The translations under genes and the position numbers were made by a program. A DNA stretch of 64,000 bases from Brevibacillus sp. DP1.3A. Lineage in GTDB: Bacteria; Bacillota; Bacilli; Brevibacillales; Brevibacillaceae. The notes under the pieces are model-generated. The model did not search any database. It was not told where the DNA came from and saw only the letters and a program-made list of their open reading frames with translations. Of this stretch, positions 39,303 through 45,566 are shown one piece after another. The number at the start of each line of letters is the position of its first letter. Within the stretch, counting starts at the first letter, position 1. The stretch is taken from NCBI RefSeq assembly GCF_013284245.2, contig NZ_CP085876.1:2277001-2341000 (forward strand), in the 5' to 3' direction.

Positions 39303-40592
39303 ATGCCCAATATTGAAGGTATCAACATCCAACAATCAAGTGCGGAACGCAAGAGCTACGTGGTTGTAGGAGCCATTCTATCATGTAGTAGTGGTAGTAA
39401 GCAGAGTAGGCTGAAAATGCCGTTCAGCCATGGTGTGTTCGTAAAAGGGAAGCCGCAAGTGAGCATCATGGATTTCGTCCCCAACATCAATATCATGCCA
39501 TTTGGAAAATGCAGCAGCTTGAAAAATCCCGCCGTCGCCTCTGCCACCGCCGCCAATAATGGTGTTCACACTCCAATGCCGTGCACACCTCTGACGACAA
39601 TGCCATGGATGGACGGGAAAGCGGACAAAATGGTCGGTGGCCATCCAGCATTGCTGAACAACTCAACAAATATGTGCTTCCATTGTGGGCTGATAAAGAT
39701 TGAAGATGACGGGCAGGATTTGGGTGGTGTGACGATAGGAAGTCAGTCGCCAGCAAATAGCGGACCGTCAGCTACCGGTTTTGGGCAAGGACCAGCTTGC
39801 GAGAAGCCACAGGAAAAGCCAAACATGTGGGATAACTTTGTCAAAGGAATCTCGAAGTTAGGAGACGTTCCTGCTGCGATGCAAAAAGCGGCAAGTGAGC
39901 TGCCAGGGGCTTTGGAGAAAGCTGCAAATGATTTGCCAAAAGGGTTGAAGAAGGCAGCAGAGGATTTGCCAAAGGGTATTGAAGTGTTTGTGAGGGAAGG
40001 TCATATCGAGCCAATGCAAGAAGACTTGGATACGTTGCGGGATGAGGATATCAATCTTGAGGATGCACTTGCAATCAGTGGGCTTGTCGTTCATGCACTG
40101 ACTTTGGGGAGAAGTAAAAACGTTAAGGATTTAGTGAAGGCGTTAAAGAAGGGAAAGAAGAGGACGGGTGATTTTAAGCCGATAAAAGAAGTAGAAATTG
40201 TAGATATGAATGGAAGACCAATCGGTGAGTTTGATGAGATAGACATGAAAAATGGCATTTTTTACGAGGATAAAACTGCAAAAGGACTAGACATTCTGAA
40301 TCCCAAAACTGGGCTACCAGCACAAACACCACAGCAATTTGCCGATAAACAAATATTGACGAAAACTAGGAATAGAATTAACAACCTTCACAAAAGTGCT
40401 GTGTCCTCAAGACCAGCAGCTAATGGAAGCCCAGAAGCACCCTCTCTTGAAGAAATTAAAGGCATACGACAGTTTGTTTTCAGGCTGGATGGAGACACAC
40501 CTGAGCTTAGAGAAGCTGTTGAAAAAAGCCTTGAGCAACTAAGAAAAGAGTTCCCAGAGTATACATTTAATGTTCAATTTGGAGGGAGATAA
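39303..40592 (+). CDS. DUF4280 (PAAR-like) polymorphic toxin
   Basis: This 429-residue protein begins with about 125 residues of DUF4280 (SYVVVGAILSCSSGSKQSRL, PMPCTPLTTMPWMDGKADKM, CFHCGLIKI), a PAAR-like spike-tip domain seen in contractile injection and related toxin systems. A linker (about 180-230) has four degenerate repeats built on KAA-LP-G (AMQKAASELPGALEKAA, LPKGLKKAAEDLPKG). The C-terminal domain carries EFDEIDMKNGIFYEDKTAKG, resembling a PD-(D/E)xK-type nuclease core. A DNase or RNase activity is inferred. GAGGAGGGG precedes the ATG. The likely immunity gene follows by two bases. Confidence 0.78.
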   Translation: MPNIEGINIQQSSAERKSYVVVGAILSCSSGSKQSRLKMPFSHGVFVKGKPQVSIMDFVPNINIMPFGKCSSLKNPAVASATAANNGVHTPMPCTPLTTMPWMDGKADKMVGGHPALLNNSTNMCFHCGLIKIEDDGQDLGGVTIGSQSPANSGPSATGFGQGPACEKPQEKPNMWDNFVKGISKLGDVPAAMQKAASELPGALEKAANDLPKGLKKAAEDLPKGIEVFVREGHIEPMQEDLDTLRDEDINLEDALAISGLVVHALTLGRSKNVKDLVKALKKGKKRTGDFKPIKEVEIVDMNGRPIGEFDEIDMKNGIFYEDKTAKGLDILNPKTGLPAQTPQQFADKQILTKTRNRINNLHKSAVSSRPAANGSPEAPSLEEIKGIRQFVFRLDGDTPELREAVEKSLEQLRKEFPEYTFNVQFGGR

Positions 40593-40594
40593 AA

Positions 40595-40924
40595 ATGTCA
40601 ATTTGTGCTTTTCTTCAAGAGCCTGAGAATGAATATGAAGAAAAATTTAATATTCCTGTTGCAACTGATTCTTTCTTTGAGGAATGTTGGAAGCCTGCTA
40701 TTGAAGAACTGAACTTAGAATGGGTTAATGTTTTTTCAGTTGGATTAGATATGGTGAAAGAAGACTTGCCGTTTGTGATGAAGGAACTATCTATGATAAA
40801 GGATTGGGCAAAAACAAATTTACCCAACGAAAAACAAGAAAAAATAATTGAAAGAATTGAATTACTTGAGGCTGAACTTCCTAATGCTTTTCGAAGAGAA
40901 GGTGCAGTAGTATTTATTGGCTAG
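40595..40924 (+). CDS. Putative immunity protein of the DUF4280 toxin
   Basis: This 109-residue acidic protein (SICAFLQEPENEYEEKFNIP; helical IKDWAKTNLPNEKQEKIIER) begins two bases after the toxin stop, behind GGAGGGAG that lies inside the toxin gene. Size, charge and position are typical of immunity proteins. The family is not recognised, so the role rests on context. Confidence 0.65.
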   Translation: MSICAFLQEPENEYEEKFNIPVATDSFFEECWKPAIEELNLEWVNVFSVGLDMVKEDLPFVMKELSMIKDWAKTNLPNEKQEKIIERIELLEAELPNAFRREGAVVFIG

Positions 40925-41114
40925 GTTTCAATAAGTAATGGTGGGGGCTACCCAGTGCCGAATGAGCCCTTCACCTTACAATCACTACTATAACCTTTAA
41001 TCTACCTGAGGAAGTTTAGAACGTCTGGAAAGAGTACACTTAACTATGATTTGAAGGTTGAACATATTTGACACATCTAAACACTCTATACTAAGGCTAC
41101 GCACGATGAATAAG

Positions 41115-41146
41115 CCGCTCGGGTAAATAACCGGGCGGTTTTTGCT
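41115..41146 (+). terminator. Terminator hairpin near the integrase scar
   Basis: GCCGCTCGG and CCGGGCGGT pair around GTAAATAA, followed by TTTTGC. It lies about 190 bases past the immunity gene. Confidence 0.7.
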
Positions 41147-41370: not shown

Positions 41371-41460
41371 CTAAAATGTCAAAATTGGTAAAAACAAGCA
41401 GGAATCTGTCGTTTTTAGTAGAATATAACCCTCAATAAGTAATTGAGGTGAAAAAGTTAA

Positions 41461-42117
41461 ATGCTGTTTGTCCTATTTTCAACATTAGAATACCTCGCAA
41501 TTTTTGCTCTTATGACTACGCTGTTTCGGTTTGGTTTTTTGGTGCATATCAACCGGATTCTCTTTGTGAGTTTGGTATTAATGCTTTTCTCGTTTGGGCT
41601 ACGACAATTTACGCCATATGAAGACTATGCAACCATAGCCCAAGTCGTCATAATCTTTGGGGCATTAATCTTAGTATGGAACGTGAATTGGGGGCATGCT
41701 GCCTTAATGACTATTATCACAGCAGGAATATACTTGGGTATTCAGATGATGGAAGTGTTCTTCCTGACCGTTATAGGAATCCTAGAGACAATTGAATCGT
41801 TAGGGGATCGAAGCATCAACACAGGGTTCATATTCCAGACAATCTCCGCATTCCTTACCTTTGCATTATGCTATGGACTTCGGAAATGTAGACTGCAATT
41901 TACATTTGTCAGAGACGGAGCGCCTTTCTTTATTCACCATAGAATCAACATGGTTATTTTGTCACTGATCATTGTAACAGGTGTATTGATAACGGTCTTG
42001 TTTAAATTAGCAAGTACATATGGAATTGCTTCCTTAGTGTGGATTTTCTTTGGGATGGCCATCGGAATCACTATACTGGCATGGCTGGCTATAAAAAGGG
42101 ATGGGGAATATGATTGA
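41461..42117 (+). CDS. Polytopic membrane protein of the agr-like operon (kinase-less AgrC sensor-like)
   Basis: This 218-residue protein has six to seven hydrophobic helices and ends in a short charged tail (IKRDGEYD) with no kinase domain. Length and helix number match the sensor part of AgrC-type histidine kinases (about 200 residues). It starts the operon behind GAGGTG, and its stop overlaps the AgrB start. The best guess is a membrane receptor-like or accessory protein of the peptide pathway; the resemblance is architectural and not proven. Confidence 0.6.
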   Translation: MLFVLFSTLEYLAIFALMTTLFRFGFLVHINRILFVSLVLMLFSFGLRQFTPYEDYATIAQVVIIFGALILVWNVNWGHAALMTIITAGIYLGIQMMEVFFLTVIGILETIESLGDRSINTGFIFQTISAFLTFALCYGLRKCRLQFTFVRDGAPFFIHHRINMVILSLIIVTGVLITVLFKLASTYGIASLVWIFFGMAIGITILAWLAIKRDGEYD

Positions 42118-42646
42118 AACTCTCGCTGAAAGAATAGCCATACAACTAAAGTCGATCAATCCGCATGAAACGAAGTCAGTCCCTACAATGAAGTTTGGGT
42201 TAATCCTTATCATCAACATGCTGCTCATCATTACGATTAGCCTTACCCTTTCACTCATGATAGGGACATTTCCAGGAACATTAATCACATTGGCCGGATT
42301 TTTAGTACTACGCCAATTTTCAGGAGGATTTCACTACTCATCGTCCGTCTACTGCACCATGACAAGTATAGTGGGAGCTGTATTAATCCCTCTAGTTCCC
42401 TTTCCTATTGAATTTGTCACCCCGATTATTATCATCACATTAGTCCTAGTAGCACTTTTTGCACCCCAAGAAATGGAAATGCAATCACGACTATTCAAAC
42501 AAAATCAGACGTTGCTCCTCAAAACCATCTCAATTATCATCGTCAGTTTATTATTTTTCATAGAAAGCGAGACGCTGGTAAAGACCTTCTTTGTGCAAGC
42601 GCTGACGCTAATTCCACTGAAAGGAGGTGGAAAAGATGAGAAATAA
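42110..42646 (+). CDS. agrB: AgrB-like peptide-processing membrane protease
   Basis: This 178-residue membrane protein carries the AgrB signature RQFSGGFHYSSSVYC: the His and Cys of the cysteine endopeptidase are seven residues apart, as in family members. AgrB cuts the C-terminal tail off AgrD and closes the thiolactone or lactone ring. Four to six helices follow. ATG 42110 aligns with the usual IETLAERIA start. It overlaps the upstream gene by eight bases and the AgrD gene by 11 bases. Confidence 0.87.
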   Translation: MIETLAERIAIQLKSINPHETKSVPTMKFGLILIINMLLIITISLTLSLMIGTFPGTLITLAGFLVLRQFSGGFHYSSSVYCTMTSIVGAVLIPLVPFPIEFVTPIIIITLVLVALFAPQEMEMQSRLFKQNQTLLLKTISIIIVSLLFFIESETLVKTFFVQALTLIPLKGGGKDEK

Positions 42647-42770
42647 AGCGATGATGTTCGTAGCGAAACATGTTTCAGCAATTGCTTCATTTGTTGCGGT
42701 ACTGGCGGTATCTACAGCATCCTTTGGTTTCGTGGGGAAACCTGAGATTCCAGAGGAATTAAAGAAATAA
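42636..42770 (+). CDS. agrD: AgrD-like cyclic lactone autoinducer precursor, 44 residues
   Basis: The precursor has a basic amphipathic N-terminal helix (FVAKHVSAIASFVAVLAV), a ring region STASFGFVG and the acidic recognition tail PEIPEELKK, the normal three-part AgrD layout. No cysteine exists; by position the ring would be SFGFV closed as a lactone through Ser29, as in Ser-type peptides of enterococcal Fsr. AAGGAGGTGG is an excellent ribosome binding site, and it lies within the end of agrB. Confidence 0.85.
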   Translation: MRNKAMMFVAKHVSAIASFVAVLAVSTASFGFVGKPEIPEELKK

Positions 42771-42902
42771 GAAGCAACGAACGGGGAAAAATGGTTGTCC
42801 CATTGCAATTCTGTAAATCTTTACTTTATGAACAGAACATCCGTGTATGATTATATTGTACTTATAGACTGCTTCTTTCAAATCATTACCAATAACCTCA
42901 TT

Positions 42903-42935
42903 CCCCTTGATGGACAAGGGGGTTCTTTTTTTATT
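42903..42935 (+). terminator. Terminator of the agr-like operon
   Basis: CCCCTTG and CAAGGGG pair around ATGGA, followed by GTTCTTTTTTT. Confidence 0.85.
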
Positions 42936-43059: not shown

Positions 43060-43473
43060 TTAATGAAACTTGGAAAGAGCGAATTTAGCTGTAAAATTCA
43101 TTTTTTTCATATAGGAAGAGTTCGCTCCAGCTTGAAATTGTACAGAAATATTGCCGTCTTTTTCTGCTTGAAAGACGCGTCCGTAAGGTGAATTAGCAGG
43201 GTATGTACCAATCACTTGATTATCCGCATCAAAGACTGTATAAGAGATCGGGAATCCTGAATTGGTTACAAATATCGTAAGTTCTTCTCCCTTTTTAAGC
43301 GAGAAAGATTCTTTTTGCGTTACTTCGTATGAGCTCAGAGAATAGTATTTCGTAACCTCTTGAATGTCTAAAGCAGTTGTTGCTGCGCTAGCTTTTGAGA
43401 CTTCCAATCCTGGCAAATATACACCCGAAAGTAGTGCAATTCCTAATGCCCCTGCTAAAATGGCTTTTTTCAT
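43060..43473 (-). CDS. Secreted small protein with a Fur-box promoter
   Basis: This 137-residue protein has a signal peptide (KKAILAGALGIALLSGVYLP; cleavage near SKASAA). The mature part is beta-rich (SFSLKKGEELTIFVTNSGFP, YTVFDADNQVIGTYP), like small extracellular immunoglobulin-fold or Bacillus secreted domains; family not recognised. GGAGGAG precedes ATG 43473. The promoter overlaps a near-perfect Fur box, so expression is probably induced by iron limitation. Confidence 0.65.
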   Translation of the reverse strand: MKKAILAGALGIALLSGVYLPGLEVSKASAATTALDIQEVTKYYSLSSYEVTQKESFSLKKGEELTIFVTNSGFPISYTVFDADNQVIGTYPANSPYGRVFQAEKDGNISVQFQAGANSSYMKKMNFTAKFALSKFH

Positions 43474-43535
43474 AATCGTGGCTCCTCCTTTTTTGCTCAT
43501 CCATGAGCGAAAGTAAATATTTGGAAATTACACCC

Positions 43536-43616: not shown

Positions 43617-43646
43617 ATAAAAAAAGAGAGTGATTCCATTGAATCA
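43617..43646 (-). terminator. Terminator of the active lipase gene
   Basis: TGATTC and GAATCA pair around AATG; on the minus strand CTCTCTTTTTTT follows. Confidence 0.6.
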
Positions 43647-44462
43647 ACATCCCCCTAAAAACGGCATACACATCCCTGTATCCGGACAAAACCCTTCATT
43701 CGCCGCACACAACCTCTCCGTAAACCCAGGCTCCTTCTGCGCCAGAAACTTAAAATAACAAACAATTTCATGATTCCTTACAGCTAGACTATTCAACTGA
43801 AAATCCAACACATACTTCCGATCCACATGCTGATAGTACAAGCCTTTCTTCGTAAACGGAGGAGGGTACACCTTTGATGGCAAAGTCGGAATAATATCAT
43901 GGACATTCACAATCCGAACACTGTTTTTTACTGTCTCATTAAACCGCGAAGCAAAGACAGGATCTCCGACACGAGGACTCCCATACGTATACACAACAGG
44001 TCGCATAAACTTCGTATTCACCGCAATATCCAAACCAGCAAGTGCGGCCAAACCTCCCCCTAAACTGTGCCCCGCAACAAATAGTCTTTTCGATCTTGAA
44101 AGCTTGCTCAACTCCCGAATCAATTCATCTCTCGCAGATTGATAAATACAAGTAAACCCACGATGGGTCTTTCCTGCCTTTTTGACAAAACGATAGGGGA
44201 CTTGATACAAATCTTGATCAGACTCATTGTCATTAAACGTGCGTGTTCCCCGAAAAGCAACAACAATACTGTCTGGAGACTCGGCTACAAAACCAAATAT
44301 CTCCTGCTCTGGAGTCTCAACACCAGCCAATGCTCGAATCGTCGAGCGCTGACGATACCCTTTTGGCAAGACAAGTGAATCTGTTTCAAAAAGCTGATAG
44401 GCCTGATGGATCATGGCCGCAAGTAAAATCGCATCTTCGCTGTTATATATACGATCGATCAT
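43644..44462 (-). CDS. Class 3 lipase (triacylglycerol lipase family), catalytically complete
   Basis: This 272-residue lipase has VVAFRGTRTF (oxyanion region), nucleophile elbow LFVAGHSLGGGLAALAGLDI, and later TYGSPRVGDPVF and NVHDIIPTLPS, with HVDRKYVL for the histidine: the Ser-Asp-His triad of class 3 lipases. The C-terminus is cysteine-rich (CPDTGMCMPFLGGC). No signal peptide is apparent. The start is ATG 44462 behind AAAGGGAGA. It is the downstream member of a tandem pair with the gene at 44501. Confidence 0.85.
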   Translation of the reverse strand: MIDRIYNSEDAILLAAMIHQAYQLFETDSLVLPKGYRQRSTIRALAGVETPEQEIFGFVAESPDSIVVAFRGTRTFNDNESDQDLYQVPYRFVKKAGKTHRGFTCIYQSARDELIRELSKLSRSKRLFVAGHSLGGGLAALAGLDIAVNTKFMRPVVYTYGSPRVGDPVFASRFNETVKNSVRIVNVHDIIPTLPSKVYPPPFTKKGLYYQHVDRKYVLDFQLNSLAVRNHEIVCYFKFLAQKEPGFTERLCAANEGFCPDTGMCMPFLGGC

Positions 44463-44500
44463 TCATGTGTCTCCCTTTCTGAGTTTCCAGGCTGTAAAAC

Positions 44501-45331
44501 CTAGCATTTGCCTTGAAACGGAATACACGTATCGGTATCGGGACAAAACCCGGGATTTTCCACACAGAGCGTTTGGGCATAATCAGGGTCAAGCTGAATG
44601 AGGCTATGAAAATAGCAGGCGATACTATCGTTGCGAGGCGTATTATTCAGTTGAAACGAGATCGGAAACTTGTTTTTTACATGTTGATAATAGATACCTT
44701 CCTGGGTAAAAGGAGGCGGATACTTTTGATCGGGGAATGTAGGAAAAGGGTCGTGAACATTTACAATGCGTAGACTATTGGCAACAACTTTATTAAAGCG
44801 TGAAGCGAAGTGGGGGTCACCAATACGCGGACTGCCATAGGTATAAACGATTGGTTGCCGAAACTGCGTGTTTTCCGCAATATCTAAGGCTGCCAGCACA
44901 GCTAGCACGCCACCGTAGTTGTGACCAGTAATAAACAGCTTTTTAGATGCTGAAAACTGATTTATTTTTCTGAGTAACCGATCCCGTGTTGATTGATACA
45001 GGCATGTAAATCCACGTGAGGTTTTCCCTGCATCTGTAACAAAAGGATAGGGGACTTGGAGGATGTCATAAGCTGCCAAAAGGTCTGCCGGATATGCTGC
45101 GTACCCTCTGAAGGCAATGATGATTTCATCTTTTGATTCTGCTACAAAACCATACACATGTTCCGTTGGATTCTCTACGTCAGCAAAAGCCCGAATGGTA
45201 TATCGAAGCTGAAAACCTTTGGGTAAGATAAGCTCCCCTTCAAAAAATAGGAGATAAGTCTGATAGCTCATGGCTGCAAGGAAAATGGCAGCCTGACTAG
45301 TAAACATGTTGTTTTCGTCCGAGAAAACCAT
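44501..45331 (-). CDS. Class 3 lipase paralogue lacking the catalytic serine
   Basis: This 276-residue tandem paralogue of the adjacent lipase has the same frame: IIAFRGYAAYPADLLAAYD, then LFITGHNYGGVLAVLAALDI, TYGSPRIGDPHF and NVHDPFPTFPD, with a CPDTDTC C-terminus. The nucleophile elbow GHSLGG is replaced by GHNYGG, so Ser is Asn and lipase activity is not expected. The fold is otherwise maintained. ATG 45331 lies ten bases after AAAGGA. It and its active neighbour are separated by 38 bases. Confidence 0.85.
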   Translation of the reverse strand: MVFSDENNMFTSQAAIFLAAMSYQTYLLFFEGELILPKGFQLRYTIRAFADVENPTEHVYGFVAESKDEIIIAFRGYAAYPADLLAAYDILQVPYPFVTDAGKTSRGFTCLYQSTRDRLLRKINQFSASKKLFITGHNYGGVLAVLAALDIAENTQFRQPIVYTYGSPRIGDPHFASRFNKVVANSLRIVNVHDPFPTFPDQKYPPPFTQEGIYYQHVKNKFPISFQLNNTPRNDSIACYFHSLIQLDPDYAQTLCVENPGFCPDTDTCIPFQGKC

Positions 45332-45566
45332 GTAGACAAATTCCTTTCCAAACAAGAATAAGGATCTAACACTTTTGAAAGGGCATATATCGAACTCTTG
45401 TCTCTCCCTCCCAAATGATAGCAGGGCAATTCTATTCGAATGACACTTACCATGAGCCTATGTTTTTACGATGGAATGCGTGCTTGTATGAAGAAAATAT
45501 ATGACTGCTTATCGGACAGGAGGGGAGGGGGCAATGACGAATTATAAAGTGGTGTGGAAGAAAAAG

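Follow-up and report, generated by a model that had tools for sequence, protein, structure and literature searches.

In Brevibacillus sp. DP1.3A, three overlapping genes on the forward strand at 41461–42770 of the window (the whole 64,000-nucleotide stretch of DNA that was analysed) probably constitute a kinase-less variant of agr, in which the first gene product, the membrane protein MemP, would act as the peptide receptor, by direct control of a LytTR protein in four-gene relatives and through an unlinked partner in the window; the probability of this reading is put at roughly 0.6. The textbook peptide quorum system of Gram-positive bacteria, agr, is understood as a two-component phosphorelay. 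Judged by gene content, the three genes of the window represent one version of a four-gene cassette that is widespread and reads as agr minus its phosphorelay parts, that is, an AgrC without the kinase and an AgrA without the receiver.

The operon and its signal-making genes

The initial annotation had placed here an agr-like operon of three overlapping genes with no agrA or agrC kinase ahead of the terminator, and both points hold: MemP, AgrB, and AgrD follow one another on the plus strand, and no kinase or response regulator is encoded between them and the strong intrinsic terminator at 42902–42932 (CCCCTTGATGGACAAGGGG, then a T run) that ends the operon. On the upstream side, a terminator-like hairpin with an 11-pair stem and a T-rich tail (41112–41141) bounds the unit. 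An upstream alignment of seven loci from the window clade, the group of Brevibacillus genomes that carry this operon, delimits a conserved leader or promoter block of about 90 nt (41372–41460), beyond which the sequence diverges between species. Within the block, a 7-bp inverted repeat (CCTCAAT-AAGTA-ATTGAGG, 41430–41448) overlaps the Shine–Dalgarno sequence of MemP; it is perfect in most aligned loci, weakened in B. fortis (L071) and in G019 (L030), and could be an operator or could mask the MemP ribosome site. Across the whole genome, AgrB, AgrD, and a sensor of the MemP type each occur once. In contig coordinates the operon spans 2,318,461–2,319,770 and falls inside the genomic island (2,311,687–2,324,264) on which the strain's sequencers, who also described a 44-kb circular element, reported a cyclic lactone autoinducer of TIGR04223 (PMC9867215), so the AgrD had already been flagged.

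AgrB (42110–42646), a predicted peptide-processing membrane cysteine endopeptidase, matches PF04647 with an E-value of 4.7e-18, and its His and Cys, His75 and Cys82 in the numbering of the 178-aa form, do not vary, either in phage copies or in relatives with as little as 30% identity, which bears out its identification as a genuine AgrB. The ATG at 42110, which yields the 178-aa form, is the likelier start given that nearly all relatives begin with MIE; 42101 is also possible. The 44-aa autoinducer precursor AgrD (42636–42770) scores above the family cut-off of TIGR04223 (E 3e-11). As had been noted at the outset, it contains no Cys and carries Ser at the ring position, so that the predicted five-residue ring, encoded at 42720–42734, is Ser-Phe-Gly-Phe-Val. 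When 37 AgrDs from the same cassette family were anchored on the conserved C-terminal P-x-E/D-L motif, the ring column held Ser in 27, Cys in 8, and another residue in 2, that is, Ser or Cys in 35 of the 37; given this column and the Ser of the window, the predicted lactone is a well-founded assignment. The SFGFV core is identical in all window-clade species whose AgrD was read.

MemP, a relative of the AgrC sensor module

MemP (41461–42117) is a 218-aa protein without a match to any Pfam or NCBIfam domain, kinases included. A profile built from its relatives recovers many stand-alone proteins of about 220 aa and, in other Bacilli, the N-termini of proteins of about 410–430 aa encoded beside AgrB. 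In hhalign, the MemP profile aligns with these AgrC-type proteins over its first ~178 residues at a probability of 99.2% (E 1.4e-19), and at two of the loci (L144 and L145) the AgrC-type protein is followed by AgrB and then by a receiver-LytTR AgrA. The profile–profile comparison and this AgrC-AgrB-AgrA context establish, at the level of sequence, that MemP is homologous to the sensor module of AgrC-type kinases, and its most likely role, deduced from that homology, is that of the peptide receptor. Several of the AgrC-type proteins matched by the profile give weak kinase matches or no Pfam HATPase match, and a protein with a clear kinase (from G026) matches MemP weakly and partially. Given that MemP members do not match the staphylococcal AgrC model of NCBIfam, the link to AgrC rests on the AgrC-type proteins of Bacilli.

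The AlphaFold2 model of MemP (pLDDT 83.9, pTM 0.81) contains seven long helices. The original description of a six-helix protein of AgrC sensor size without a kinase domain is therefore upheld by hhalign as regards a kinase-less AgrC-sensor relative, and amended in its helix count. No hit under E 1 was returned by Foldseek for the model against PDB and BFVD, VIA-align gave Z-scores of at most 6.3, which are usual for unrelated helical proteins, and the PDB contains no sequence relatives of MemP.

A cassette family in Paenibacillales

The three-gene order, which the initial annotation had proposed to look for in related genomes, does recur there, with MemP beside AgrB-AgrD common in Paenibacillales. 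An AgrB-alignment scan of named genomes yielded 47 loci in Brevibacillus, Paenibacillus, Cohnella, Longirhabdus, and Caldalkalibacillus, and MemP adjoins AgrB in all 47 (one of them, L097, was the sole locus missed by a later script). MemP is present in 188 of 297 Paenibacillaceae genomes, a count that covers this family and not all AgrC, since the profile was built from such cassette loci. Among the matches listed, stand-alone frames of the MemP family measure about 207–324 codons, and none is of kinase length. Of 48 named AgrB genes, 36 have a stand-alone LytTR gene without a receiver after AgrD, mostly of ~110–135 aa, one has a receiver-LytTR gene, and 11 have no LytTR; the stand-alone form was also present at 19 of 20 loci sampled from the class and at nine of ten further Paenibacillaceae loci, and all 39 aligned copies match PF04397. 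MemP is a maintained family, and its usual gene order is MemP-AgrB-AgrD with a stand-alone LytTR gene behind it. No fusion of MemP to LytTR was found; the sole long candidate frame (324 codons, G497) has LytTR as a separate gene.

The constant adjacency of MemP and AgrB, which persists even at LytTR-less loci, is also what might be expected if MemP assisted AgrB/AgrD in processing or export, aiding maturation or release of the peptide, with the receptor located elsewhere. This account, an exporter version of which had been offered initially, finds its one support for export in that adjacency, and no further MemP-family sensor is encoded in the window genome. It is nevertheless unlikely, given that MemP shows homology to the AgrC sensor domain and to no transporter family in Pfam or NCBIfam, and that its usual downstream partner gene encodes a transcription factor. 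A receptor role for MemP is the reading retained here.

The family includes several variant loci. In Brevibacillus gelatini (L078:5677-7904), two more genes lie behind a complete four-gene cassette, one for a receiver-LytTR regulator and one for a small GHKL kinase of 277 aa whose membrane part is short. At the corresponding place in B. reuszeri (L047:7477-8100), a shorter protein of 207 aa resembles the B. gelatini kinase and is possibly a degenerate kinase. Two cassettes coexist in one strain of Brevibacillus porteri (L072 and L069): one is a three-gene operon as in the window, the other includes a receiver-LytTR gene. At L052:4881-6288, a tandem MemP pair stands ahead of a single AgrB, as though a single signal had two receptors.

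Cassettes in temperate phages

The same module is carried by the Brevibacillus phages Davies, Emery, and Abouo and the Paenibacillus phage Harrison, in which MemP, AgrB, AgrD, and stand-alone LytTR genes lie near integrase and repressor genes. Here, too, MemP is doubled, in tandem before one AgrB, in Davies (L151:4265-5669) and Emery (L152:3268-4669), again as if two receptors shared one signal. The viral contigs found contain the same module, a few of them with a receiver-LytTR gene. In all four phages (L151–L154) the LytTR product is annotated as hypothetical, except in Harrison (L154), where it is called a dipeptidyl aminopeptidase.

Passages of Hargreaves 2014 (PMC3901668) describe the membrane proteins of Davies, Emery, and Abouo as maybe AgrC homologues lacking the HTPase_C domain, so that AgrB, AgrD, and one or two AgrC-like membrane proteins of this kind are shared with the cassette; a LytTR gene directly downstream is not mentioned in those passages. 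A 2025 review (PMC11945551) states that AgrA is absent from phages with agr homologues. It appears that the phage LytTR gene beside the agr genes has been overlooked so far: kinase-less AgrC-like phage proteins were noted in 2014, and neither the LytTR gene nor the bacterial spread of the module was found described in the open-access literature, with PMC3901668 represented by the passages found. If the cassette works as proposed below, some temperate phages own a complete, self-contained peptide circuit, where the review has the regulator absent.

In the phage AgrDs (L151:6186-6305, L152:5188-5304, L153:5180-5308, and L154:5162-5290), the aligned ring position is occupied by neither Ser nor Cys; Lys or other residues lie nearby, and the AgrD of Abouo has a Ser one residue before that position. 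Because the aligned position lacks Ser and Cys, the phage peptide may be closed by another chemistry or be linear.

Upkeep and output of the operon in the window clade

Nine genomes of the same genus, that of DP1.3A included, have an intact operon, with MemP identities of 80–97% and median pairwise dN/dS values of 0.13 for MemP and 0.16 for AgrB, which indicates that both genes are under purifying selection in the window clade. That MemP is a truncated leftover was rejected on the same grounds, nine Brevibacillus species being intact at a dN/dS of 0.13. Nor do related strains possess an agrC/agrA pair of which MemP could be a remnant, a scenario that the initial annotation had named as one that would refute its proposal: MemP is a stand-alone protein in every Brevibacillus and Paenibacillaceae relative examined, and its full-length, AgrC-type relatives belong to more distantly related Bacilli.

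A profile search of the nine window-clade genomes for stand-alone LytTR proteins found none, only longer LytTR proteins of receiver or PAS type and one on the 44.6-kb contig of the DP1.3A genome; the LytTR proteins of this genome are unlinked to the operon, and no credible LytTR remnant is present downstream of AgrD. On the AgrB tree, the window clade is one supported group, and LytTR-less loci as a whole require two or more independent changes, with four needed on the best tree. The clade thus appears to keep signal and receptor without the LytTR partner gene. The recurrent change, together with a broken MemP in one B. reuszeri copy (strain NIT02; L076, contig C42 of G010, a decayed LytTR-less cassette whose second MemP copy is interrupted by stops), could be taken to mean that the operon is a decaying remnant of the four-gene cassette after loss of LytTR. 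This is the least probable of the accounts considered, in view of the intact genes and low dN/dS values across the nine species, the identical AgrD core, and the conserved leader. A signal-only or decoy locus, whose peptide would be aimed at neighbours while MemP soaks it up to protect the producer, accords with a clade that lacks a dedicated regulator partner; there is no known target system for such a peptide, and purifying selection on MemP at the level of AgrB is compatible with this idea but not specific to it, so it is held to be very unlikely.

A split AgrC, in which MemP would be the sensor subunit of an ordinary phosphorelay completed by an unlinked histidine kinase and response regulator, has more in its favour and is still an improbable account. 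It can draw on the B. gelatini locus, where a REC-LytTR regulator and the GHKL kinase follow the cassette, on the replacement of LytTR by REC-LytTR in B. porteri and some viral contigs, and on the second contig of the DP1.3A genome (G000 C2; 44,610 bases), where an agr-type receiver-LytTR regulator (L134:6379-7116) is 30% identical to that of B. gelatini. However, most cassettes have neither a kinase nor a receiver, and in most other window-clade genomes nothing corresponds to the second-contig regulator. This regulator adjoins a large protein of TPR-like appearance, and the only AgrB of the genome is not on that contig.

Proposed mechanism and relation to known systems

We return to MemP as a putative receptor in a kinase-less agr variant. 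AgrB would cyclize the core of AgrD to a lactone of the five residues Ser-Phe-Gly-Phe-Val, with a short tail on the N-terminal side, and the mature peptide would bind MemP from outside the cell. In four-gene relatives, MemP would then bind the small LytTR protein directly and thereby gate it, either keeping it at the membrane or releasing it; control by binding and not by phosphorylation is suggested because these cassettes lack both the AgrC kinase domain and the AgrA receiver domain. In the window clade, in which the LytTR gene is absent, the receptor would act via an unlinked partner. The ring chemistry, the receptor role, and direct MemP–LytTR control are all inferred. Taken more broadly, the cassettes may represent a widespread form of phosphorylation-free quorum sensing, in which a cyclic AgrD peptide acts on a kinase-less AgrC sensor that gates a bare LytTR, common in Paenibacillales, employed in the lysogeny region of temperate phages of Brevibacillus and Paenibacillus, and re-wired at its output in the window clade; this wider proposal is tentative, at somewhat under even odds.

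With agr (AgrBDCA), the operon shares the His/Cys pair of AgrB, the Ser/Cys five-residue ring and the acidic, PEIPEEL-type C-terminal tail of AgrD, and a putative receptor homologous to the AgrC sensor, and its four-gene relatives also share a DNA-binding LytTR protein comparable to AgrA's C-terminal half. It differs in that the histidine kinase and receiver domains are absent: AgrC is represented, by homology, by its sensor part, no REC-LytTR AgrA is co-encoded, and the window form lacks LytTR as well. Within the cassette family, the window has the kinase-less AgrC-sensor homologue bordering AgrB/AgrD and is without the downstream stand-alone LytTR, which is common but not universal. The agr1 locus of Clostridioides difficile, which consists of AgrB and AgrD only according to passages of PMC3901668, likewise has signal-making genes with no local kinase or regulator, but a MemP-type receptor gene is not described there in those passages.

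A precedent for the gating of LytTR by MemP is offered, by analogy, by the LytTR Regulatory Systems HdrRM and BrsRM, in which a LytTR regulator that lacks a receiver is kept inactive by a membrane protein, with no phosphorylation (Zou 2018, PMC6193735). A receiver-less LytTR protein and a multi-helix membrane protein encoded in one operon are common to these systems and to most relatives of the window operon, in contrast to the window clade, which has no LytTR. In the cassette, however, the membrane protein is of AgrC-sensor ancestry and is encoded upstream, and a peptide maker, AgrB/AgrD, is built in; PMC6193735 does not mention AgrB. LytTR Regulatory Systems also have direct repeats in their promoters, whereas repeats of this type (~12-bp spacer) upstream of MemP were in no excess over shuffled sequence in a crude test, and group alignments of this region revealed conserved blocks and no clear operator. 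Because such repeats were not found, membership is not claimed for the cassette, which at most may work like a LytTR Regulatory System.

In the open-access literature, a phosphorylation-free relay of a peptide signal appears to be undescribed, although an account in a subscription journal or preprint is possible. The cassette joins two fields that have been studied separately, agr and LytTR Regulatory Systems, and, as a natural version of agr without kinase and receiver domains, it permits a direct test of whether an AgrC-type sensor signals by binding its regulator.

Neighbouring genes

Downstream of the operon and convergent with it throughout the clade, a minus-strand gene at 43060–43500 encodes a 146-aa secreted protein with a signal-peptide-like N-terminus. 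It is followed at 43644–45355, on the same strand, by two class-3 lipase-like genes, the first of which matches PF01764; both features are syntenic across the eight window-clade loci compared, with an apparently reduced lipase pair in G002. The LoaP-controlled PKS locus had been placed about 3 kb away, and the LoaP gene does end about 2.8 kb downstream, but the association is not constant. Eight genomes, each of them with the operon, contain a close LoaP orthologue (89% or more), whereas the sister species G019 has the operon, the secreted gene, and the lipases without LoaP-PKS. Linkage to LoaP-PKS is thus not obligatory, and a functional tie was rejected. Given that the secreted gene stays with the operon, it deserves priority over the PKS as a candidate target. 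On the other side of the operon, the 39303–40924 region holds a gene for a PAAR-like DUF4280 protein, which has a long extension at its C-terminus, and a small gene behind it; the two resemble a toxin–immunity pair, and the sequence of this region varies between species as far as the conserved leader of the operon.
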